A stretch of 64,000 nucleotides of DNA from Legionella parisiensis (lineage in GTDB: Bacteria; Pseudomonadota; Gammaproteobacteria; Legionellales; Legionellaceae): contig NZ_LNYQ01000012.1 in assembly GCF_001467945.1 (NCBI RefSeq), forward strand, positions 310,001 to 374,000. Reading direction: 5' to 3'. This document shows positions 2,652-63,591 of this stretch, piece by piece. Each line of letters opens with the position of its first letter. Position 1 is the first letter of the stretch. The position numbers were made by a program, and so were the translations under genes. The notes below the pieces were generated by a model. The model had not been told where the DNA came from. It saw nothing but the letters and a program-made list of their open reading frames with translations, and searched no databases.

Positions 2652-5000
2652 TCACATCACGTTTTCAATTTTTTTACTGAGAACGGCACTTAAGTAATTG
2701 GGTACATGCATACCCGTATTTTCTGCTGATATGGCTAGCAACTGATTTTGAATGGCTTTTTGCATGCTTTGATCTGTGGTTTCTAAAAGTTGGATGAGCA
2801 AACTCTCTTTTAACTCATTCTCTTTTGATTGGGGTTTAAAAAAAGAATGAGAATTATCGGAAGTTGCTTTCTCAAAAAACAATGCACGTAAAACCAACGT
2901 ATTTATTGGTTCTTTATTAAGCGCATCGATACACGGTGGGTTTTCCGCTTTGAATAACTCTTCTAACAAAATTTCTTTCGCTTGGGGGTTATTCAGTATT
3001 CTGCTAAGCACCTCTGTTCGTTCTTGCTCTTTCAGTTGAAAAAAAACACTAGGTTCTTCCGCAGTAAACTCAAAAACCTCCCCAGATATTTCATAGGTGG
3101 GGATAGTGAACAATATTTTTAATCCTTGCTGCAATATGTACTCATCAGATTCATTTTCCATTATTTGCAGTAAAGGTATTAACATATCTTTACGTGGTTT
3201 TTCCTCATAAAAAAAAGCACTTAGACTTAACATGACATCAAGAGCCTCTTTTTTTTCTTCCGATGTTAATATGTTTGTATCTATCCATGATAAGGAATTT
3301 AGGTAATCGTTTATGGGGTGTGCTTCGATTGTAATATCTTCTTCTTTTCGATTTATAAGAACAATACCAACTTCCTGTGAAGTCGTTTTTTGTAAACTGT
3401 TAAGTATAATTGGGGCAGGTAATTGAATATTTAGAGATGGATATTGTTTATGAATTTCGTAAAAAAAAGGCATGACATCATATACTTCCAAATCAAAAAT
3501 TTCATGTATGTTGTTAATAAGGCATTCTATCATTGCGTTTCTTTCATCGTCAGTATCTGCACTTTTGAGATAAAATTCGATATGACTACATAATGCCTTA
3601 TGACTCAGGAATTTTTCTTTCTGCCGCCCTTCACTTTGTGTATAAAAATCAAAATCGTTTATGAGATTTTGAATAAAGTATTGATATCGTTCAAGTAAAC
3701 TCATTCCTATTAAAGAATTAATGTAGTCAATAATATTAATCGCCAAGTTTTTCTTCAGAATGAGCTCGGCTCGTAGTGATTGGATCTCTACTTGCATTTT
3801 CGACTTATTAATTGAATAAAACTCAGCCAGTTCTTTGGGCGAGATGGTTTGACTCGCATTTTTAGTGAGCCATTCGTGAAGGGTGGGGTAGCTTTGAGTA
3901 AAAGATGTTAGTGAGTCATAGAGTTTTTTCTTCCAGGGCATGGCTTGATAAAACGGAATTTTTGCTAAAGATAATGCCTCTGAAAGGCTTTGATCGCCCG
4001 TCAAAAGATTCACGGATTCTGATGCTTCCATTAATGCTTGTACGGATTGTGGGTGTAGAGGAAAAGGATTGAAAACTCGAATTACTTTATCCGAGTCGTT
4101 TTTTTGAGTTTCATATTCTACTTCATTAATTTCTTTTGCAACCAATTGAGTTTCATTTTTTTGATAAACAAAATAGCGAGTAGTGCCGGCGTGAGAGTAT
4201 GTAATAACTACTTTATTAAAATCTTTTATGTCATCCATAAAGTTTTTTTCAAGTAGTGCATCTATTTTATTTTCCACATCAATATCATTCCCTCCAGGCA
4301 AGAGAGGGATAACCACATCCACTTGTTTTCCAGGGCTATTATGGGCCGCAAAAGCTATAAAGTGTGCAGGATTTGCCCCTGTTTTGGAGCAGCCAATTTT
4401 ATTAAAATAGCCAAAATACAGACCTTCATTTTGATTAAGATCACGGGGCAATTTTGCCAGATCAGTCAGATGGAGTCGCTGAAATAAATTTTCTTGGGAA
4501 GGGAGGGGGTGATTAATGAAAATTCCTAAACATTTTTCTCCAATGCCAGTACTCACATACATAGATCCCGCTACTGTATTGACAAAACCTTTGCTATTAT
4601 GTTGATGAAGAATATCGTAGTCATACTCTACCAGTGAAATAACCCCACTTTTTTTTGATCTTGCCATTATGTCTGAGATTAATGTTGCCGTATTTAAATT
4701 AAGGAAATGAGGTGTCGGATAGAGAATGATGAGATCCGCATCACTAATATTTTGTTCTAAACTCTTTTTTCCTTCAGGGGTATTAAATTTTTTTATTAAT
4801 TCATAGCTCATTTCCCCGTGAAATAAATTTTTAACAGCCTCTTCATCTTCTGTGGAACCGGTATCAACAATTACTTTAACATCGATCTCTTGTCCTAGTT
4901 GTTTAAATTGTTCCTGCAGAAGCCTTTGTAATTTCGCTGCTGAGCTTGGGTCTCCTAAAGTCTTTTGCGGAGCGTGCGTCATTATGATTATTTTAGCCAT
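2652..5000 (-). CDS. Large protein with GT-B-like N-terminal half, candidate effector
   Basis: A 782-aa product starting at ATG 5000; an upstream in-frame TTG at 5012 is less likely. The first ~370 residues alternate beta strands and helices, beginning with MAKIIIMTHAP. They contain a SHAG motif and a segment reading LLTGDQSLSEAL..AKIPFYQ. That segment is the kind of acceptor/donor loop found in the C-terminal Rossmann domain of GT-B glycosyltransferases such as the arginine rhamnosyltransferase EarP. The remaining ~400 residues are helical, with no recognised domain. There is no signal peptide or transmembrane segment. A glycosyltransferase-like effector is an inference; the overall family is unknown to me. 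Confidence 0.55.
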   Translation of the reverse strand: MAKIIIMTHAPQKTLGDPSSAAKLQRLLQEQFKQLGQEIDVKVIVDTGSTEDEEAVKNLFHGEMSYELIKKFNTPEGKKSLEQNISDADLIILYPTPHFLNLNTATLISDIMARSKKSGVISLVEYDYDILHQHNSKGFVNTVAGSMYVSTGIGEKCLGIFINHPLPSQENLFQRLHLTDLAKLPRDLNQNEGLYFGYFNKIGCSKTGANPAHFIAFAAHNSPGKQVDVVIPLLPGGNDIDVENKIDALLEKNFMDDIKDFNKVVITYSHAGTTRYFVYQKNETQLVAKEINEVEYETQKNDSDKVIRVFNPFPLHPQSVQALMEASESVNLLTGDQSLSEALSLAKIPFYQAMPWKKKLYDSLTSFTQSYPTLHEWLTKNASQTISPKELAEFYSINKSKMQVEIQSLRAELILKKNLAINIIDYINSLIGMSLLERYQYFIQNLINDFDFYTQSEGRQKEKFLSHKALCSHIEFYLKSADTDDERNAMIECLINNIHEIFDLEVYDVMPFFYEIHKQYPSLNIQLPAPIILNSLQKTTSQEVGIVLINRKEEDITIEAHPINDYLNSLSWIDTNILTSEEKKEALDVMLSLSAFFYEEKPRKDMLIPLLQIMENESDEYILQQGLKILFTIPTYEISGEVFEFTAEEPSVFFQLKEQERTEVLSRILNNPQAKEILLEELFKAENPPCIDALNKEPINTLVLRALFFEKATSDNSHSFFKPQSKENELKESLLIQLLETTDQSMQKAIQNQLLAISAENTGMHVPNYLSAVLSKKIENVM

Positions 5001-53503: not shown

Positions 53504-55462
53504 CTAAAATGGAGATGGTTTAGCAGAATTTTCGCAGGTGAGTGTTTGTTCCAGTTGTTTGAGTTCAGAATAAATATCAGCTATAGGACCATGGTTAAGA
53601 CAGCTTGTGTTTTCACTATAGATATCATCAAGCGACTGATTGTTTATAATTGCGGACATTAAAGCATTTGCTGCCAAGATGAACTTACTCTTTCCAACAT
53701 CCAAATCGGTGCTCTGTGTTAAAAAAAAATCAGGTTGATAAGTGCTTGTTCCTGATTCGAGATCATTTTTACAAATTTGTAATAATCCCAGGAAAAGCGC
53801 TTTTTTAATGTCCCGATCCACATATTGCTGATTGATTGACAAAATAGCATCCTGCATTGAAACATGTTGCAGCAAGCAAGATTTTAACTTGGTAGCCGGG
53901 ATAGCGCTTATTAAAGCTAATCGATTTTTGTGGTCTGTTTTGGAAATTATGTTAACGAATTCATCACGATTTGTTATATCGGCAAATAGTTTAAATGATG
54001 TTGTAGCTTCAAATTTATTAAGTTTGATATTTTCTAAACTTGCCCCTTCTGATATCAGGTATCGAGCTATTGCATATTTTTTCAATTTGAGTGCAAGGTA
54101 TAAAGGAGAATTTTTGGGGTCGTCAGGTGAATCAAATTTAAAACCTCTATCTATAAGTAATTTTAATACTTCAATATTATTTTCTTTAATAGCTAAATGT
54201 ACGGGGGAATCGTTATTAGAAGTCAAGCTGTCACAATCTAACGCACTTTTATGATTAAGTAATACTCGCACAGATTCGATGTGGCCTTTTACAATAGCAA
54301 TATCGAGTGGTGTCATGCCATTTTTATTCTTGATGTGCATATTTGCACCGTTATTTAATAACACTTCTAATATTTCTGGGTCGTCTCTCTGGTAAGCAAA
54401 GAAATATAAAGCTGTCTCGCCAGTGTTCGGATCAACAGAATTCAAGTTTATTCCCTGTTGTACCAATGCGTTCACAATCCCGATATTACCACGCGCCCAC
54501 AAAAGCAAGGATTTTTGCCGAAACGTCTGATGAATGTCTAATTTTTTATTATTTATAAAATCTTCTATTATCTCAGGGTTATGTAATGATATTAAATGGA
54601 TAGTATTATCATTTAAAATATTCATTCTTTCATCGGTGATTTTTTTATATGCACTTCTGAATTGTGTTAAATCACATTGATTGTCTGCTGCGATTAGTAT
54701 TGTTAAGGAAGGACTATGAATACTTCCAGATGATAATTTTTGTCTTGCAATATTAATTGTATTTATTAAGCCAGTATAATCATTTTCATTAAATGATATT
54801 TCTCCAGATTCATTGTTGGGATCAAAAAACCACCATTGGTCGTCATGAAATTGTAACGCCATACTATGCTTGACAAATATAATGAGACAGATATTATTTT
54901 TAATTGCATTTTTTGTCTGGGGACTATCCAATAATTGTTTTAGTTCTTTATCATCAAAATCACCGGATACCGCTTCATCCTGGACTATGCTATGAATATG
55001 GCCCTCTGAATCAAGATATTCAAAATATCCCCCAGGTTGCAGAAATCTTTCCTGCCTGTAATTGGGGCTCGTAATCATATTTTTAGTAGTTAATTTTCCA
55101 TGATTGAAATAAAGATAATTCACCACTTTCTCAAGGAGTGTTTCAAGTGTTTCATCTAGAGAGTCAGAATCAGGAAGTGCGAGAGGCAAATTCAAAGATT
55201 CCTCACTACCGTCCCATGTTATTATTGCAGTTAATGCAGAGTTCCACCATGCAGATTTCCCTATCTTATTCATAACGCTGTAACAAACACTTAAGCCAAA
55301 ACATAATCCTCCTTTATCTACATTAAAGTCAAAAGAGTCATTACCGTGTTTGCCTTTCTGTACTTCGAGGTATGCTTGAAGTTTTGGAATAATAACCATC
55401 TGGCTTAAATCGATTGACTGTTTAGATTCCACAACTATCTCCTTGGTCCGACTAATACTCAC
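53504..55462 (-). CDS. C58-like cysteine protease with ankyrin repeats, effector candidate
   Basis: A 652-aa protein. The N-terminal ~250 residues fit a YopT/C58-type papain-fold protease: GGLCFGLSVCYS puts the nucleophile at Cys54, KHSMALQF gives His199 and WWFFDPNNESGE gives Asp214. These are in the order and local contexts seen in YopT and AvrPphB. Residues ~310-480 contain about five ankyrin repeats (patterns such as TGETALYFFA, NGMTPLDIAIVKGHIESVRVLL and SPVHLAIKENNIEVLKLLI). The C-terminal ~170 residues are helical. Ankyrin repeats would select a host target. It resembles ankyrin effectors such as AnkH/LegA3, which has a cysteine-protease-like domain. No signal peptide. Confidence 0.78.
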   Translation of the reverse strand: MSISRTKEIVVESKQSIDLSQMVIIPKLQAYLEVQKGKHGNDSFDFNVDKGGLCFGLSVCYSVMNKIGKSAWWNSALTAIITWDGSEESLNLPLALPDSDSLDETLETLLEKVVNYLYFNHGKLTTKNMITSPNYRQERFLQPGGYFEYLDSEGHIHSIVQDEAVSGDFDDKELKQLLDSPQTKNAIKNNICLIIFVKHSMALQFHDDQWWFFDPNNESGEISFNENDYTGLINTINIARQKLSSGSIHSPSLTILIAADNQCDLTQFRSAYKKITDERMNILNDNTIHLISLHNPEIIEDFINNKKLDIHQTFRQKSLLLWARGNIGIVNALVQQGINLNSVDPNTGETALYFFAYQRDDPEILEVLLNNGANMHIKNKNGMTPLDIAIVKGHIESVRVLLNHKSALDCDSLTSNNDSPVHLAIKENNIEVLKLLIDRGFKFDSPDDPKNSPLYLALKLKKYAIARYLISEGASLENIKLNKFEATTSFKLFADITNRDEFVNIISKTDHKNRLALISAIPATKLKSCLLQHVSMQDAILSINQQYVDRDIKKALFLGLLQICKNDLESGTSTYQPDFFLTQSTDLDVGKSKFILAANALMSAIINNQSLDDIYSENTSCLNHGPIADIYSELKQLEQTLTCENSAKPSPF

Positions 55463-55846: not shown

Positions 55847-58800
55847 ATGAGATATACAGCTATGTTCCAGGGATGGGAAAAGTTAGCTCTTTCAGACATG
55901 CTGGTTGCTTATAGAAAGGCTAAAGCTGATAATTTTTTTGAAAATATATTTCCTTCATCGAGTAAATTTGCTGAGTATGAAAGAGACCTAATAAATAATT
56001 TAAAAAAATTGCTTAAAAGGCTTCAATCAAATAATGGGTTTGAAAATTGTGATGATCTATTAGGCATCCCAAGACTTATACCAAAAAAATTGACATCAGA
56101 GTGCAAGAAGAAAAACGAAAATATTCATTTCTCAGATCCAACTAGAGAATTTATAAGCATAAAGGAAAATTTGCATGCAGAATTTAGAGTTGTTGGTGAT
56201 TTTCCTATTGATACACATATTATCTCAGCACTTTGGATAAATATGATTGGTTATAAATTTGATGCCGTACTTAGTCATAATGTATACAGTGCTAGACTTA
56301 AAAGAATAAACAATGATGGCAGAAAGTTAGAATCATTTCATCTATCAGCAATTGATTCATTTGAACCTTATTACCACAGATACCAAAAATGGAGAGAGGA
56401 TAGTCTAAAAGCAATACGAGATAATTTACATAACAACAGAAATGTTATTGCTGCTTCGTTAGATTTAGAGAATTTTTTTCATAATATTGACCCATCGTTT
56501 CTTTCATCTGATGCTTTTGTAAAAGAGCTTATTGGAAAGCGTTTTACAGGTCTATCAGAAGATGAAACTAAATTTAATGTTCAAATGAGTCTATTCTTGA
56601 AATGCTGGTCAGATAAGGCCAGTTCATTATTTGATAATAGTCTCTTTAAAGGTGGTCTTGTTATAGGATTAACAGCGACTCGTGTTATTTCAAATATCAT
56701 TTTGTATAAGTTCGATAAATTGGTAAAAGAAAAAATTACACCAATACATTATGGTCGTTATGTTGATGATCTTTTATTAGTAATTTTAGATCCTGGTAAT
56801 ATAAGCAATATTGTAGAGTTTATGGATTATTTGAAAAACAGATTAGGTAACGGTTATCTAAGCAATGATAATGAGAAATGGTCAATAAATTTGGGAGAAG
56901 ATTATCAGAGAAAGTCAATATTCCAATTTCATTCTGAAAAGCAAAAATTATTTGTTCTAGAAGGTCAAGCAGGGTGTGATTTACTCGATAGTATAGAAAA
57001 AGAGATCAATGAATTATCTAGCGAACATCGTTTGATGCCTATGCCCGATCAACTAGATCAAACAACTGCGGCACGAGTGCTTTCTGCTTCAGATAATACT
57101 AGAGAGCAAGCTGACACTTTTCATAGAGCTGATGGGTTGACAATACGGCGATTAAGTTGGGTATTGCAGTTGAGACATTTTGAATTATTAGCACGAGATT
57201 TACCAGCTAATGAATGGAAAGAGGAGAGAAAGGAATTTTATCAATTTATTAAAAACCATATTATTAGGACTGATAAGTTCTTTGAATTTTATAAATATTT
57301 ACCCAGAATTTTGGGTTTTGCAATAAATCAGGGTGAGCTAAACAAGGCTTTGGACATTGTAAACTGCACATTCAAATGTGTTGAAGAGCTAAAAGATGTT
57401 AATAAAATAAAGATTAATGGGAAAGAAATTCCTTCAGAAATTAAAAATGACGTATTAAATAAGCTTGAAGAAAGTTTAATTGAAGTCTATAAGGAGGCAC
57501 TCTTTAGATATTTAGATTTAAGTAATTACATAAATAAAAATAAGCACTTCAATTTTTCTGAAAAAGATAAAAATATAATTCAGCAAATATTGTCAAAATT
57601 AAAATCCTCGGGGCCAAATATAATTTTTGAAAAATCAAAAAAATTGTTGATATCTGATTTGGCCACTATTCCTTATAAAGAATTTTTATCTAAAGCTTAT
57701 GCAAAAAGTTTATTACATGAATTTAATAGTGATAAACAGACTGAAAATGAAATCATGCAGGAGTTTCAAAAAGCTGAATTACTAAATACTCAAAATCTAA
57801 AAGAGTTTTTGAATAGACGAAAAAAAACAATACTCCAAGTTGATTTTTATTGTCCATTTCTCTTTCCAACTAGACCATATACACCTGAAGAAATTGCCAG
57901 TATTTCACCTGAGTGCATTTGGCCTCAAAAGTCAAAGGGAGAATCACCGAGAGCAATTTGGTCAAAATACGTTCAGGCTCTTAAAGGAGTATGGATTAAT
58001 CCCTCTGTTTTGGATGAAGAAGTTAACCTAAGTGAGAAGAATATTATAAGAGTAGGTAGTTTGCTCAAAGATAGGATTATAGTTGCTATTACAAGCTTAA
58101 AAACGTCAGAAGAGGAATGGGCGTATTCTGCTTGCGGTAAGCCTTCCTTGACTCTTAAGCGCTATAAACGAATATCAAAACTTATCAACCAAGCGCTACA
58201 ATTATCACCCAAACCTGACTATTTAATTTTTCCTGAACTATCAATACCAATTGATTGGATACCTAGTATTTCAAATCGTTTATTAAAATCCGGTATAAGC
58301 TTAATAGCTGGTACTGAATATAGAGGAAAAAAAGAAAATAAAATTTTTAGTGAGGCCTGTCTCTGCTTGATAGATAATAGTTTAGGGTATCCCGCATCAA
58401 TTAGAATATGGCAACCCAAGCTCAATCCAGCTGTTGGTGAAGAATACAAACTCCTATCAATCTTTGGGAAGACATGGTACAAGGACAAAAAAAGTCTGAA
58501 AGAAACTATTTATAATCATAACAATTTCTACTTTGGTGTTATGGTTTGTTCGGAGTTACAAAACTCAAAATTACGTATTAGTTACCAAGGCACCATCGAT
58601 GCTCTTATGATACTTTCATGGAATAAGGACATTGAAACTTTTTCTAAATTAATAGAGTCTGCAGCTTTAGATCTCCATGCTTATATTATCATGGTTAATA
58701 ATAGAAAATATGGGGACAGTAGGGTAAGAGTACCTAGTAAGCAAGAGTTCAAAAGGGATTTAGTAAGGCTAAGAGGTGGAAAAAATGATTTCTTAGTTTC

Positions 58801-58936
58801 AGTCGAGTTAGATATTAATGCTCTTAGGACATTTCAGTCTCGCGCTAAAAGTTGGCCTAGAGATGAAGATCCATTTAAACCAGTTCCAGAGGGCTTTGAA
58901 AGCTCACCTGGGCGTAAGAAAATTCCCCCCAGATAG
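55847..58936 (+). CDS. Defence-associated reverse transcriptase-nitrilase fusion (DRT/UG type)
   Basis: A 1029-aa fusion. Residues ~100-420 are a reverse transcriptase of the UG/Abi kind: the first catalytic Asp is in SLDLENFF (Asp206) and the YVDD box is Tyr305-Asp308. Residues ~430-700 are helical, as in other UG RTs. Residues ~745-1010 form a nitrilase/amidase domain with the full triad: Glu797 in LIFPELS, Lys858 in WQPKLNP and Cys901 in VMVCSEL. RT-nitrilase fusions are known as DRT type 1 (UG1) and also occur in UG5; they protect against phages by an abortive mechanism. No partner gene is needed in DRT1. Base composition is more AT-rich than in the housekeeping genes, and the integration site is 180 bp downstream. 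Confidence 0.88.
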   Translation: MRYTAMFQGWEKLALSDMLVAYRKAKADNFFENIFPSSSKFAEYERDLINNLKKLLKRLQSNNGFENCDDLLGIPRLIPKKLTSECKKKNENIHFSDPTREFISIKENLHAEFRVVGDFPIDTHIISALWINMIGYKFDAVLSHNVYSARLKRINNDGRKLESFHLSAIDSFEPYYHRYQKWREDSLKAIRDNLHNNRNVIAASLDLENFFHNIDPSFLSSDAFVKELIGKRFTGLSEDETKFNVQMSLFLKCWSDKASSLFDNSLFKGGLVIGLTATRVISNIILYKFDKLVKEKITPIHYGRYVDDLLLVILDPGNISNIVEFMDYLKNRLGNGYLSNDNEKWSINLGEDYQRKSIFQFHSEKQKLFVLEGQAGCDLLDSIEKEINELSSEHRLMPMPDQLDQTTAARVLSASDNTREQADTFHRADGLTIRRLSWVLQLRHFELLARDLPANEWKEERKEFYQFIKNHIIRTDKFFEFYKYLPRILGFAINQGELNKALDIVNCTFKCVEELKDVNKIKINGKEIPSEIKNDVLNKLEESLIEVYKEALFRYLDLSNYINKNKHFNFSEKDKNIIQQILSKLKSSGPNIIFEKSKKLLISDLATIPYKEFLSKAYAKSLLHEFNSDKQTENEIMQEFQKAELLNTQNLKEFLNRRKKTILQVDFYCPFLFPTRPYTPEEIASISPECIWPQKSKGESPRAIWSKYVQALKGVWINPSVLDEEVNLSEKNIIRVGSLLKDRIIVAITSLKTSEEEWAYSACGKPSLTLKRYKRISKLINQALQLSPKPDYLIFPELSIPIDWIPSISNRLLKSGISLIAGTEYRGKKENKIFSEACLCLIDNSLGYPASIRIWQPKLNPAVGEEYKLLSIFGKTWYKDKKSLKETIYNHNNFYFGVMVCSELQNSKLRISYQGTIDALMILSWNKDIETFSKLIESAALDLHAYIIMVNNRKYGDSRVRVPSKQEFKRDLVRLRGGKNDFLVSVELDINALRTFQSRAKSWPRDEDPFKPVPEGFESSPGRKKIPPR

Positions 58937-59115: not shown

Positions 59116-59167
59116 TGGCTCCCCGGACAAGACTCGAACTTGTGACCTAATGATTAACAGTCATTTA
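59116..59167 (-). other. Attachment site: displaced 3' part of tRNA-Asn
   Basis: The complement reads as a tRNA-Asn from the anticodon arm (ATGACTGTTAATCAT, anticodon GTT) through a T-arm (ACAAG-TTCGAGT-CTTGT) to the acceptor strand and CCA. The D-arm and 5' acceptor strand are missing. This is the usual duplicated core left by integrases that target tRNA genes. The mobile element should lie on the 5' side of the fragment, that is to the right, where the integrase is. Confidence 0.85.
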
Positions 59168-59193
59168 TTATTCGATATTAATTGATTTCAAAT

Positions 59194-59264: not shown

Positions 59265-59292
59265 TTTAATATTATCTCAATTCATATTTAGT

Positions 59293-59328
59293 GGTACCAA
59301 AATCGGTACCAAAAATCATCTTGGTACC
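59293..59328 (+). promoter_or_regulatory. Triple GGTACC boxes upstream of integrase
   Basis: The palindrome GGTACC occurs at 59293, 59305 and 59323, spaced 12 and 18 bases, immediately before the integrase ATG at 59333. It could be an operator for autorepression or an excisionase site. Confidence 0.45.
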
Positions 59329-59332
59329 AGTT

Positions 59333-60538
59333 ATGAAATTTACTGACGCGTATATCCGCAATTTAAAACCCCAGCAAAAATGGTTTGAACAAATCGAGTT
59401 TAGTGGGCTTGGAATTCGAGTCATGCCAGGGGGGGGTAAATCATGGATCTTTAGGTTCACTTTTGATGGCAAGCGTTACAAGATGACTTTGGGCAAGTAT
59501 CCGGGAATTGGCTTGAAGGAAGCACGTGAGCTAATGTTGGATGCGGAACATTTAAAAGAACAAGGGATTAATCCTATAGAGCATGCTAAGCAACAACAAG
59601 CCAAATCGGACAACACCGTAAAGAAACTTGCTTTAAGTTGGTATACTCATTATGTCGAAAAGCATTTAAAGCGTCCTTTAACGGTTAAAAAACAAATAGA
59701 GGGTGATATTAATATGCTTCTTGGTGATTGGGTTTTGGATGAATTGGAAACAAGGCATATTACTCAAGCGTTGGATAAGATTGTCAAACGAGGTGCAAGC
59801 GTGCACGCAAACCGCGTTTTAAGCTCTCTCAAACAAATGTTTGGCTATGCAGTAAGCCGTGGCACTATGAGCACTAATCCCGCCTCTAATATTCGCGCAA
59901 GAGATATTGGCGGTCATGAGAAACCAAGAGAGCGTGTTTTAAGTCTGGATGAAATCAAGTCCCTCTGGCTATTTTTGGACAGTAATGACTCCCAAATGGC
60001 ACCACAAACCCGCATTGCGATTAAGATTATTTTACTGACAGGTGTTCGTACTGCTGAACTGCGCTTGGCGCAATGGAGTGAAATCAATTTTGAGGAGTCA
60101 CTTTGGACTATTCCGGCTTTGCATTCCAAGGCTAACATTGTTCACAAGGTACATCTTAGTTATTTAACCAAAGAATTATTGTTGCAGCTCAAAACAATTA
60201 GTAAATCGGAATATGTTTTAACAGGTATAGACTATTGCAAACCATTGACAGAAAATGCTTTACCTAGAGCTATTAAGCGGATTCAAGAGCGCTTAGGCAC
60301 TTCAGAGTGGACAGCGCATGATCTGCGTCGTACATTCGCCACTCAACTTGGAGAGACTTTACAAATTGACCCTGTGGTTATAGAGAAATGTTTGGGGCAT
60401 AAAATGCCACGAATCATGGCAACTTATAATCGAAATGAAATGTTGCCTCAAAGAGAAGAGGCTTTGGAACAATGGGCACAGCATATACATAATTTAATGG
60501 CTAATAATATTGTGTATTTAAATATGAAAACGAAGTGA
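59333..60538 (+). CDS. P4-type tyrosine recombinase (island integrase)
   Basis: A 401-aa integrase. The N-terminal DUF4102-type arm-binding domain starts MKFTDAYIRNLKP. A SAM-like core-binding domain covers ~100-190, and the catalytic domain shows TGVRTAEL (Arg I), HDLRRTFAT (His-x-x-Arg), CLGHK and the nucleophilic Tyr in TYNRNEML. ATG 59333 is preferred over GTG 59291 because it gives the standard family N-terminus. It lies 165 bp from the tRNA-Asn fragment, so it is very likely the enzyme that inserted this element. Confidence 0.95.
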   Translation: MKFTDAYIRNLKPQQKWFEQIEFSGLGIRVMPGGGKSWIFRFTFDGKRYKMTLGKYPGIGLKEARELMLDAEHLKEQGINPIEHAKQQQAKSDNTVKKLALSWYTHYVEKHLKRPLTVKKQIEGDINMLLGDWVLDELETRHITQALDKIVKRGASVHANRVLSSLKQMFGYAVSRGTMSTNPASNIRARDIGGHEKPRERVLSLDEIKSLWLFLDSNDSQMAPQTRIAIKIILLTGVRTAELRLAQWSEINFEESLWTIPALHSKANIVHKVHLSYLTKELLLQLKTISKSEYVLTGIDYCKPLTENALPRAIKRIQERLGTSEWTAHDLRRTFATQLGETLQIDPVVIEKCLGHKMPRIMATYNRNEMLPQREEALEQWAQHIHNLMANNIVYLNMKTK

Positions 60539-60580: not shown

Positions 60581-61300
60581 ATGATGAGTGAACTGATAAA
60601 TATATACTGTGATGAAAGTTGCCATTTAGAATCTTCGGCAATAACCATTAATAATAGGTATATGGTACTTGGTGCGATTGCATGTCCTATTAAAGACAAA
60701 GATGCAATATTTAAAAAAATTAAAGAGATTAAACGTCAAAATAAGCTTAAAGAATTCTCAGAAATAAAATGGACTAAGGTTACAAGAAATAAGCTCGCAG
60801 CATATGAAGCTTTAACAAATTATTTTTTTAGTTGCGAGCAGCTTTCTTTTAGAGCAATTATCATTGATAAAAATCAACTGCAACATGATCGATTCAATCA
60901 CACCCATGATCAGTTTTATTACAAAATGTATTGGCAAATGCTGGAATGGTTTATTGATCCTAAAAATTCTTATCATATCTATCTCGATATTAAAGATACA
61001 CAAGGATATTTAAAAATAGAAAAACTTCATGAAGTGCTTTGTAATTCCCATCATGATTTTAATAAAAAAGTAGTAGCAAAAATCCAAGAAGTGAGATCAC
61101 ATGAAAATGTATTAATCCAACTAGCTGATTTAATGATCGGCGCTATATCTTATGCTAATCGATATCCTCTAGGTGGGCAAAGTTGTGCAAAACAACGAAT
61201 TGTAGATCTAATCAAATCACATACTGGTCTGTCTCTTGTTCGCAGTACCTCTCTCGGCGCACGTAAATTTAACTTATTTAATTGGGAGGGGCGTTTGTGA
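60581..61300 (+). CDS. DUF3800 protein
   Basis: A 239-aa DUF3800 protein, a family with an RNase H-like fold and unproven function. The acidic residues that define the family are visible: Asp11-Glu12-Ser in IYCDES, Glu61 in FSEIKW, Asp96 in AIIIDKN, Asp136 in IYLDIKD and Asp183 in IQLADLMIGAISY, so a metal-dependent nuclease activity is plausible. Starts at ATG 60581 or the adjacent ATG 60584. The following gene overlaps its stop by 4 bases (GTGA), implying coupled translation. DUF3800 genes often sit in mobile elements, and structured RNAs (the DUF3800 RNA motifs) have been reported beside them. Confidence 0.88.
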   Translation: MMSELINIYCDESCHLESSAITINNRYMVLGAIACPIKDKDAIFKKIKEIKRQNKLKEFSEIKWTKVTRNKLAAYEALTNYFFSCEQLSFRAIIIDKNQLQHDRFNHTHDQFYYKMYWQMLEWFIDPKNSYHIYLDIKDTQGYLKIEKLHEVLCNSHHDFNKKVVAKIQEVRSHENVLIQLADLMIGAISYANRYPLGGQSCAKQRIVDLIKSHTGLSLVRSTSLGARKFNLFNWEGRL

Positions 61301-61782
61301 GTTTGTATCCCTTACCTGATCTCGTATTGTTTGAAAGTTTTGGTGGTGATTGGAACAACTACCAAAATGCTTTATATCAACTATTCCTTGATAAAATTGA
61401 TCGTAAACTATCATTTCTCGGATTACCAATTAAATGTCGTTATTTTGAACCAATTTCTGAAATGCATAGAAGTTTTTGGCATTTGGTCACTTCAGGTCCA
61501 GTAGAAGATGAAGACCGAACCGTAGATTTTCGTCGTTGTGAAAGGATTAATTGGATCCCCCACATAATCCAACATAGCAGTTACTCAGAAATTTTATGTT
61601 GGGAGAACAAAAGAGGCTCGAATATAAACACTGTACTATGGCTTCCTCCAGAGCAATACATGATTATTCTTTCAAATCGTAAAGATTACTATTTGTTAAC
61701 TACTGCTTACGTGCATGATGAAAGAAAAGGCAAGACAAATCTGAAAGAGTCCAGTGCAAATAAAGATCCCAGAAAAAGCTGA
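61297..61782 (+). CDS. Small DUF3800-partner protein, possible BECR-fold RNase
   Basis: A 161-aa protein starting at GTG 61297, with GGGAGGGG five bases upstream and the start overlapping the DUF3800 stop. Conserved-looking features are HRSFWHLVT near residue 52, FRRCERINWIPHII near 74-87, a WENKRG segment and LSNRKDYYLLTTAYVHDE near 122-139. The last pattern resembles the C-terminal strand-and-loop of Barnase/EndoU/ColicinE5/RelE (BECR) type nucleases found in mobile elements, but this is from memory of the pattern only. A small RNA is encoded convergently over its last bases. It may be toxin or effector of a cassette with the DUF3800 protein. Confidence 0.7.
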   Translation: MSLYPLPDLVLFESFGGDWNNYQNALYQLFLDKIDRKLSFLGLPIKCRYFEPISEMHRSFWHLVTSGPVEDEDRTVDFRRCERINWIPHIIQHSSYSEILCWENKRGSNINTVLWLPPEQYMIILSNRKDYYLLTTAYVHDERKGKTNLKESSANKDPRKS

Positions 61783-61833
61783 GGCCGCCTAAGCGACCTC
61801 GAATGCTCCTTCTACACTGAAGGTAGATGAGTT
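61771..61833 (-). ncRNA. Small RNA convergent to the DUF3800 operon
   Basis: On the complement a transcript of about 63 nt would begin near 61833. It folds first as TCTAC-CTTCAGT-GTAGA (61812-61828), then AGGAGCATTC, and ends in GAGGTCGC-TTAG-GCGGCCTC followed by AGCTTTTTC (stem 61781-61800, T-run at 61773-61777), a textbook intrinsic terminator. It overlaps the stop codon and last ~10 bases of the 161-aa gene in antisense. Location next to a DUF3800 gene fits the reported DUF3800 RNA motifs. It could be an RNA antitoxin, guide or regulator. Confidence 0.65.
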
Positions 61834-61839
61834 AATAGT

Positions 61840-61870
61840 ATTATAGCAGATTATACAGCCTGTATGTCAA
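61840..61870 (-). promoter_or_regulatory. Sigma-70 promoter of the small RNA
   Basis: On the complement TTGACA (61865-61870) and TATAAT (61840-61845) are both consensus hexamers, separated by 19 bases. A palindrome ATACAG-C-CTGTAT (61853-61865) lies between them and could be an operator. Confidence 0.65.
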
Positions 61871-61916
61871 ATAATTGGAGACCAAATAAGTTGTGTACGC
61901 CTTACCATACACAAAA

Positions 61917-61949
61917 AATATCATTATCATTTAATATCAATCAATATCA
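61917..61949 (+). repeat. Second AATATCA heptamer cluster
   Basis: Direct copies of AATATCA at 61917-61923, 61933-61939 and 61943-61949 lie just upstream of the promoter of the LvrA-like gene, matching the cluster by the attachment site. Confidence 0.5.
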
Positions 61950-61992
61950 GCATTTGAAATGCTATTGACCTATGTAGTTTCCTTCCTACAAT
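61950..61992 (+). promoter_or_regulatory. Promoter and palindromic operator of the LvrA-like gene
   Basis: TTGACC (61965-61970) and TACAAT (61987-61992) are 16 bases apart. The palindrome GCATTT-G-AAATGC (61950-61962) sits directly before the -35 box, a good place for a repressor or activator. Confidence 0.55.
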
Positions 61993-62026
61993 GAACCCAT
62001 AAAGACTATTAATTCGCTTAAAATGG

Positions 62027-62851
62027 ATGATACGAGGCATGAATTTTTTATTTGCCAATGCTTATGAGTTAGCAGCGTTACTTGAATTGCCTTATATACA
62101 AAGATTAGTTTACCTGATGGGTATTCGTCCATATATGGACAGACAAAGTTGCATCGTAGGTATCAAGCGCAGAATCAGTTATCAATCATTGCGTGAAACC
62201 CTTTATGTGGGACCTATTGCAGGCGTTAAAACAGGCAGTCCAAGCCTTCAGCAAATGAAGCGGGCCGTTAAATCATTAGAGCGTGCTGGACTTATTGAGA
62301 TTCAGTCCACTGAAAGGCACTTAATCGTGAAGTGTATTTACGCTGAATTGGATAACCCTGCTCCAAATAAGGCAGTATCGAAGCCGAACCGTAATCCCGA
62401 CACAAACCCGACACAGGAAGATGCTGTGGAATCAGGAGAATCATGTACATTAAGACACAAACCCAACATAGGCAATAACTCTGAGGCCGACCCACCTCAG
62501 AAGTCAGAAGATAATAATTATATATATGTGTGTAGCAAATTTGAAAAATTTTGGAAAAGTTATCCACATCCCGTTGATAGGGAAGCAGCTTTTTATCAAT
62601 TTAGAGAGCTTAATCCTGATGATAAGTTATTTGAAAAGATGATGACGGGACTACATAAGCAAATTGAAAGTTATAATCTTCTGGTAATGATAGGTGCATG
62701 GGTACCTAAATGGAAGTATCCGGCAAACTGGTTGGCCAGAAAATGTTGGCAAGCAGATCCGTACGTGTTTGAGCATTCATTACCAGTTGCACATGGCTTG
62801 GAAAATGAACAGATAGGTCTTCAAGAGGACTGCAATCTAGATCATACTTAA
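62027..62851 (+). CDS. LvrA-like island protein with winged-helix N-terminus
   Basis: A 274-aa protein. The N-terminal ~100 residues (FLFANAYELAALLELP..QRLVYLMGIRPYMD, then KRRISYQSL and QQMKRAVKSLERAGLIEI) look like a winged-helix DNA-binding domain of the plasmid replication-initiator or phage-O type. A polar Pro/Asn/Ser/Glu linker (~110-165) joins it to a C-terminal domain (FEKFWKSYPHPVDREAAFYQF..W) typical of replication-protein C-termini. It resembles LvrA, encoded at the start of Legionella conjugative islands, as I recall it. Start at ATG 62027 or 62039; neither has a strong ribosome site. Confidence 0.6.
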   Translation: MIRGMNFLFANAYELAALLELPYIQRLVYLMGIRPYMDRQSCIVGIKRRISYQSLRETLYVGPIAGVKTGSPSLQQMKRAVKSLERAGLIEIQSTERHLIVKCIYAELDNPAPNKAVSKPNRNPDTNPTQEDAVESGESCTLRHKPNIGNNSEADPPQKSEDNNYIYVCSKFEKFWKSYPHPVDREAAFYQFRELNPDDKLFEKMMTGLHKQIESYNLLVMIGAWVPKWKYPANWLARKCWQADPYVFEHSLPVAHGLENEQIGLQEDCNLDHT

Positions 62852-63327: not shown

Positions 63328-63591
63328 ACCCTTAACCTGTGGCTGGACGTTAAGTAGGGTAAATAACGGTGAAATTATTAATAATTGTTTGATCTACATA
63401 AAAATACAGGAGATATTTAATTTAAAAAATAGTTGTAAACAGGCGAGCCGTTTGCCTTATAACGGTTGATTTGCCCCCTTTCTTCGAGCATTACAGCATT
63501 GCTGGGTTTCAACTTTGAGTGAGCCGCTCGACCAACACTAAACTCAGAACAGGGCAAATAACATTTCGATCATTGCTTATGAGATAATTGA
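63328..63591. other. Non-coding region with several inverted repeats, candidate origin or oriT
   Basis: This part of the 740-bp gene-free stretch holds an imperfect inverted repeat ACCCTTAAC/GTTAAGTAGGGT (63328-63360), a stem CCGTT/AACGG (63449-63466) and a widely spaced pair ATTTGCCC (63469-63476) / GGGCAAAT (63552-63559). No gene is visible. In a conjugative island such DNA can be an origin of transfer or a promoter-operator region; nothing here decides between them. Confidence 0.3.

Follow-up and report, generated by a model that had tools for sequence, protein, structure and literature searches.

The genes rlfA and rlfB of phage P1 (rapA and rapB in phage P7) carry in the P1 record the sole note 'possibly associated with lytic replication', and PADLOC lists the corresponding proteins as the phage-defense candidate PDC-M04. 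In a stretch of 64,000 nucleotides (nt) from Legionella parisiensis (contig NZ_LNYQ01000012.1, positions 310,001 to 374,000; hereafter the window) we studied a cassette of two genes which, by sequence, are homologues of this pair, and which is met at its end by a convergent, predicted small RNA. Phage P1 shares with the cassette the two genes, their coupling and the same RNA convergent behind rlfB, but its record has no RNA feature there; similarly, both proteins match PDC-M04A and PDC-M04B, whereas that candidate is known by its proteins alone. RNA annotation at the site is equally lacking in the records of phi3T, SPBc2 and the Vibrio phages considered below. No paper using the name PDC-M04 was found in the literature searched, and searches on DUF3800, RlfA/RlfB, PDC-M04, candidate phage-defense systems, pseudo-ToxI, SPbeta small RNA and anti-defense RNA gave no description of the RNA among the entries listed; bioRxiv preprints and most subscription papers lay outside these searches, so that a prior description is possible. 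Within the literature searched, the protein pair is already known, by name only, and the RNA component is apparently undescribed.

In type III toxin-antitoxin systems the RNA antitoxin gene consists of repeats directly upstream of the toxin gene and on the same strand, and the toxin adopts a ToxN/PemK-like fold; the DUF3800 motifs of Rfam, for their part, are structured RNAs beside DUF3800 genes. The cassette RNA is instead a single motif, placed downstream of the protein genes and on the opposite strand. Its likeness to the type III system ToxIN lies in an RNA beside an RNase gene and in a phage RNA, pseudo-ToxI, that resembles the antitoxin (available text of PMC3475682); it differs in that the RNA has two hairpins and converges on the genes, and in that these encode two nuclease-like proteins, of which RlfB has a predicted BECR-like fold. 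None of the Rfam motifs, for example DUF3800-I (RF02969) and DUF3800-IX (RF02968), named in the portion of PMC11701678 available, matches the cassette RNA in the stretches tested. The TPR-DUF3800 proteins found with Cas12a2 offer a further parallel, DUF3800 being there too an RNase H-fold protein, but neither RlfB nor such an RNA occurs in the available part of their description (PMC10910872).

The cassette and its convergent RNA

The first gene of the cassette (60581..61300, plus strand) encodes a DUF3800 protein of 239 residues, RlfA, which matches Pfam PF12686 (E = 4.8e-17; 63.5 bits against a cut-off of 21) and PDC-M04A (1.1e-85). The second (61297..61782, plus strand) encodes a protein of 161 residues, RlfB, which matches PDC-M04B (7.6e-56), and the pair also matches PHROGs 3732 and 16230. 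An initial annotation, made from the letters alone, had described a DUF3800 protein with intact acidic residues that is coupled to a second gene; the reading frames of the window bear this out, the stop of rlfA overlapping the GTG start of rlfB as GTGA, and D11, E12, D136, D139 and D183 of RlfA are shared by all 54 sequences aligned. RlfA is predicted to be a nuclease of RNase H2-like fold. For RlfB, in which a BECR-nuclease-like pattern had been suspected, the predicted fold indeed resembles the BECR RNases RelE, HigB, colicin D and YafQ and the CdiA toxins, with modest scores, and we treat it as a predicted BECR-like RNase. RlfB has no Pfam match, its sequence profile found no plausible match among solved structures, and one of 62 RlfB members weakly matches PBECR2 (E = 0.01). 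ToxN/PemK-like chains were not among the structure-comparison matches listed for it, an absence that does not exclude such a fold. Ten residues (W61, H62, R74, D77, R79, R80, C81, E82, R83 and W102) are invariant in the 62 members and are candidate catalytic residues only.

The RNA is predicted to occupy about 61 nt on the minus strand (61773..61833), its ends being placed by a promoter-like site and a T run. The former (61840..61870, minus strand; TTGACA-19-TATAAT with an extended -10, TGC preceding the -10 box) was found by pattern search and stands at the same distance from the RNA in relatives; it is the sole exact TTGACA/TATAAT pair with a spacer of 15-19 nt in the 64 kb, where shuffles hold 0.14 on average (14 of 100 shuffled windows have one somewhere), and a standard promoter scan did not list it because that scan permits spacers of at most 18 nt. 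Alignment and covariation define a first hairpin, P1 (61806..61831, minus strand), with CUC/GAG and UCUAC/GUAGA helices and the loop CUUCAGU. The second, P2 (61781..61800, minus strand), recovered by a terminator scan and with pairs that covary in relatives, is an intrinsic terminator that reaches the rlfB stop codon and is followed by the T run. The 70-nt RNA stretch folds better than 200 of 200 shuffles (z = -3.6). Decisive is the match of a covariance model, R1, built from other organisms, at 61840-61766 (57 bits, E = 4.3e-16): the predicted small RNA corresponds to a conserved element at this locus, much as the initial annotation had drawn it, with a promoter-like site and a terminator of its own and running into the 3' end of rlfB. 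A DNA search of the same genome with the RNA gave one full match and eight short ones, and the single R1 match per genome ruled out that the RNA is a repeat family.

The model derives from a search with RlfB of genome contigs, in which the best 80 of 163 relatives were used as loci. With the window RNA stretch as query, blastn gave matches just downstream of rlfB and on the opposite strand in many of these, and on reading the motif was apparent in nearly all. Alignment of 53 copies furnished the seed of R1; the seeds were picked after the motif had been seen, using a hand-made anchor, and the held-out loci include near relatives of the seeds. On this basis the RNA is convergent behind rlfB in 79 of 80 loci (the 53 seeds and 26 of 27 others by R1), which span many bacterial phyla and one archaeal metagenome-assembled genome. 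The sole exception, L086, is a contig ending at the rlfB stop, and the copy in L090 is cut by a contig end. The RNA is likewise present in 18 of 18 RlfB loci of viral contigs, most of them P1-like, and R1 also matches phage P1, a Bifidobacterium phage and the Legionella genomes G034, G037 and G020, with no match in the Legionella loci L107 and L108, neither of which showed an rlfAB. An rlfA gene lies upstream of rlfB on the same strand in 76 of the 80 loci; the other four are L044 and L067, which both begin at contig edges, L083 and L088. The 4-nt overlap of the two genes is the commonest spacing (39 of 75 loci with a measured gap). A lack of co-occurrence elsewhere had been set beforehand as the outcome that would speak against the association; what these neighborhoods show is near-constant company of both genes and the RNA.

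Across the 53 copies, 97.9% of the 954 cells of the P1 and P2 structure pair, against 41-52% when the partners are slid by 1-3 columns. Fifteen of the 18 base pairs change on both sides (shuffles 7.2, standard deviation 1.2; none of 500 reaches 15), and RNAalifold, unaided, predicts the identical structure. By summing, 112 of the 954 cells are G-U; read from the other strand these cells would not pair, which marks the strand opposite to rlfB as the one under selection. Conservation is stronger in hairpin P1 than in P2 and extends into the linker after P1, the 5' part of the RNA being nearly invariant. Of 81 RNAs, 60 have a sigma-70-like site with at least 8 of 12 matches at a constant position (shuffles preserving base composition only: 14.3, maximum 22). 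The distance from the end of the -10 box to the CUC is 7-10 nt in 57 of these 60, and the spacer is 17 nt in 45. Given this fixed position, transcription would be expected to begin at P1 and to stop at P2. In L144 and the Marinobacter-type loci L063, L068, L076 and L078, P1 has a longer apical arm and does not keep the usual loop sequence.

We also considered that the RNA might be cis-antisense to rlfB and rejected this: an anchor marking where P1 ends falls past the rlfB stop in every locus with the anchor except L035, L071, L081 and L096, so that the overlap with the end of the coding sequence is chiefly that of the terminator and differs in extent between loci. The Rfam DUF3800 models, put forward in the initial annotation as a scan for this RNA, did not recognize it: there was no match at gathering in the window, five Legionella loci or ten loci, and searches of the window stretch to E = 5 and of a consensus-like copy to E = 10 gave chance hits only, so that as far as tested the RNA fits none of these motifs.

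Solitary copies of the RNA

A consensus query against phage records matched 55, including SPbeta-family phages (25 of 25 nt in phi3T) and two Vibrio phages; among the best 40 of the 55, 21 match the P2 stem only (query 32-51) and were not counted as copies. Querying with the copy from phage P1 brought matches in phages of Mammaliicoccus and Streptococcus as well. R1 confirms all eight solitary loci from these four groups (L226-L233; near position 3000, in gaps; 31-60 bits), none of which has an annotated feature under the RNA match, and a search found no RlfB in the SPbeta-family, Vibrio, Mammaliicoccus and Streptococcus phages. In SPBc2 a second P1 hairpin is visible by eye just upstream; R1 lists one of the two. 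In IMG/VR a pattern for P1 matches 70 contigs, whereas the reversed pattern, used as a control, matches none, and a variant pattern adds one more; R1 confirms 71 of 71. Only three of these have rlfAB in the fetched stretch, leaving 68 without it, though seven of the 68 have less than 600 nt on the would-be rlfB side, and a divergent rlfB could escape detection. A DNA similarity search of the whole intergenic stretch against phages and plasmids gave chance hits only, and a search for the exact 20-nt terminator stem matched no viral contig.

The solitary copies nonetheless keep their pairing: the pattern leaves three pair positions free, and there 123 of 123 combinations from 41 clusters are able to pair (in shuffles 109.4 on average and at most 117). 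Promoter-like sites are not in excess among them (8 of 67, against 7.3 in shuffles that again preserve base composition only). Of the 74 solitary loci, 28 contain a transfer RNA (tRNA) gene; the RNA is on its strand in 27 of these 28 and lies within 100 nt of it in 13, where 3.87 would be expected, in a test that counts related contigs singly (74 loci, 46 clusters) and whose random places include coding parts. In L223, L231, L219, L225, L166, L191 and L215 the R1 match is at most 1 nt from a phage tRNA gene on the same strand, or touches it. The related viral contigs L160, L161, L177 and L193 have a second, weaker copy (about 25 bits) about 80 nt from the first.

When genomes were scanned without regard to rlfB, R1 had matches in 5 of the 45 Legionella genomes at E 0.01, in 8 of the 369 genomes from the class at E 0.001 and in 16 of the 398 from the phylum, each count including the window's own genome. 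At E of at most 2e-6 there are 16 distinct genomes, nine with rlfAB adjoining the RNA and one (G090) with, by eye, a degenerate rlfB beside a DUF3800-like gene. The other six (G020, G270, G375, G488, G431 and G443) have no rlfAB in the stretch, which in G488 extends only about 400 nt on that side. By eye, the G488 and G431 copies keep a promoter-like stretch, while the copy in G375 is terminator-like and follows a TonB-type gene, and that in G443 is near a terminase-like gene. None of eleven weaker matches (E = 1.3e-4 to 0.008) has rlfAB, and most of them may be chance; one, in G146, looks like the RNA motif in a phage near a terminase gene. In locus L134 a PIN gene and a second gene, the latter with no PADLOC match, precede a convergent RNA copy without a clear promoter; from their look we take the two to be DUF4411-like PIN and HEPN-like genes.

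The carrying element and its cargo slot

Directly upstream of the cassette lies the tyrosine integrase of the carrying element (59291..60538, plus strand; PF00589, 1.5e-21), an arrangement repeated in L125. On the opposite side of the cargo slot is a 274-residue gene of the shared element backbone (62027..62851, plus strand), which has no Pfam match above cut-off and which, by its look, is presumably replication-like. Its copies are 99% identical in G020, 92% in G041 (with one internal stop codon) and 89% in G006, and homologues are found in 39 of 45 Legionella genomes, with at most seven matches per genome. In G020 the same integrase and 274-residue gene lie on either side of an RmrA homologue and of a protein that is PIN-like by eye and has no PADLOC match. 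Adjoining the 274-residue gene on its slot side, there is a SoFic homologue in G041 and an AbiEi homologue in G006. As defense-type genes occupy that side in all three genomes with a closely related backbone gene (89-99% identity), the cargo slot appears to be a defense hotspot, in keeping with the initial annotation, which had placed the cassette directly after an island integrase where defense modules commonly sit. The slot loci in three other Legionella genomes are L125, L107 and L108.

The RNA copy of G020 has, by eye, a -10-like box and no good -35, and we interpret it as left over from an earlier rlfAB. Its place beside RmrA and the PIN-like gene had raised the idea that the RNA belongs to the element backbone rather than the cassette, which fell on the presence of the RNA behind rlfB in other phyla. 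Several further features of the window were observed. Directly upstream of the integrase is a DRT-type reverse transcriptase of the UG5-nitrilase class (55847-58936; PADLOC 1.6e-293), adjoined by an ankyrin-type repeat protein on the minus strand (53504-55462; PADLOC Ankyrin model, 3.4e-11). A tRNA-like stretch adjoining the integrase (59127-59183; Rfam, 34.7 bits; not called by ARAGORN), present in G020 too, is perhaps the attachment site of the element. The near-palindrome TTGTGTA...TACACAA (61891-61914), between the RNA promoter and the 274-residue gene, is perhaps an operator, and the 123 bp next after it (61908-62030) are common to three relatives. Finally, a RAGATH-13 RNA (63465-63559; Rfam, 94.8 bits) recurs next to the same gene in the relatives G020 and G006.

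A possible RNA-restrained nuclease

The reading to which we incline, as on balance probable, is that the RNA restrains an RlfAB nuclease acting against phages, the solitary phage copies being antitoxin-like mimics. A separately promoted convergent RNA near-constantly accompanying two nuclease-like proteins, here in a defense slot, is what an RNA-restrained nuclease would be expected to look like. Likewise, phages with the RNA alone, its shape kept and apparently expressed from phage transcripts, have the expected look of evasion by RNA mimicry, for which the pseudo-ToxI of phage PhiTE against ToxIN provides a precedent (available text of PMC3475682). In the mechanism that we infer, from transcription, binding and inhibition to trigger, tRNA target and counter-defense, the cassette would be a three-part module of rlfAB and RNA, in which RlfB, with its BECR-like fold, is likely to be a toxic RNase, and RlfA, as its RNase H2-like partner, may join it in processing or degrading nucleic acid. 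The RNA, transcribed from its own promoter on the opposite strand, would bind RlfB or the RlfAB complex through P1 and the linker and keep the nuclease idle in the manner of RNA antitoxins. Phage infection would lower the RNA or otherwise free the nuclease, which would then attack an RNA needed by the phage, possibly tRNA, and phages would counter with RNA copies of their own, often in tRNA arrays or other phage transcription units. The tRNA as target is a hint only, drawn from the tRNA neighborhood of the phage copies and the colicin D-like match. The initial interpretation of the cassette as an RNA-controlled nuclease system is partly supported; it did not foresee that the pair was already catalogued, as P1 rlfAB and PDC-M04, or that the RNA is widespread alone in phages.

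The main rival holds the RNA to be an activating cofactor, substrate or scaffold of RlfAB in an RNA-containing nuclease complex, with the solitary phage copies acting as decoys that titrate RlfA or RlfB, to which the solitary-repeat RNA anti-CRISPRs may be likened. The near-constant pairing of RNA and rlfAB would fit such a complex, as would the RNase H2 fold predicted for RlfA, since proteins of this fold handle duplexes that contain RNA, and the DUF3800 proteins that elsewhere adjoin Cas12a2 and are thought to act on RNA (available text of PMC10910872). The RNA, however, has no variable stretch able to guide, since its nearly invariant 5' part begins at P1, and a free-standing promoter opposite to the genes suits an inhibitor at least equally; we regard activation as rather unlikely, if still a serious contender.

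Weighing against restraint in another way is the C1 operator that precedes rlfA in phage P1, next to repL. Together with the lytic-replication note of the P1 record, the doubled P1 hairpin of SPBc2 and the 68 of 71 viral copies without rlfAB in the fetched stretch, it points to a general RNA of phages and mobile elements with a job of its own in replication, packaging or translation control, RlfAB being a phage function that uses it. This we consider improbable, given that rlfAB occurs in islands and in genomes of many phyla, here beside an integrase, that it is dispensable for the plating of phage P1 (PMC10695390), that other genes replace it in P1-like plasmids (available part of PMC6906374), and that the Legionella slot trades it for known defense genes. 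That the hairpins are a mere terminator and 3' boundary of the cassette, without RNA function, was already disfavored and seems very improbable: P2 is an intrinsic terminator, and one cellular copy (L137) follows a TonB-type gene in the sense direction, but P1 outdoes P2 in conservation, covaries and is followed by the conserved linker, the promoter-like sites aim at P1, the G-U cells mark the strand opposite to rlfB as the selected one, and P1 is retained in the phage copies even though these lack their own promoter.

Returning to the restraining RNA, we put forward a wider proposition more tentatively, as one that may well prove too bold: that an undescribed RNA-protein immune module is spread across many phyla, with a single family of small RNAs restraining a tRNA-cutting BECR/RNase H2 pair, and that very different phages (the SPbeta family, Vibrio phages and large phages with tRNA arrays) independently took up the RNA as an anti-defense agent. 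Independently of mechanism, a protein pair known by name from the P1 record gains a third partner, an RNA almost as constant as the two genes and without annotation in phage P1, and SPbeta carries a member of that RNA family. Should the RNA restrain the nuclease, rlfAB would represent a widespread RNA-controlled defense module for which nature already supplies a set of phage counter-RNAs, and there would be a testable reason for DUF3800 genes adjoining structured RNAs.
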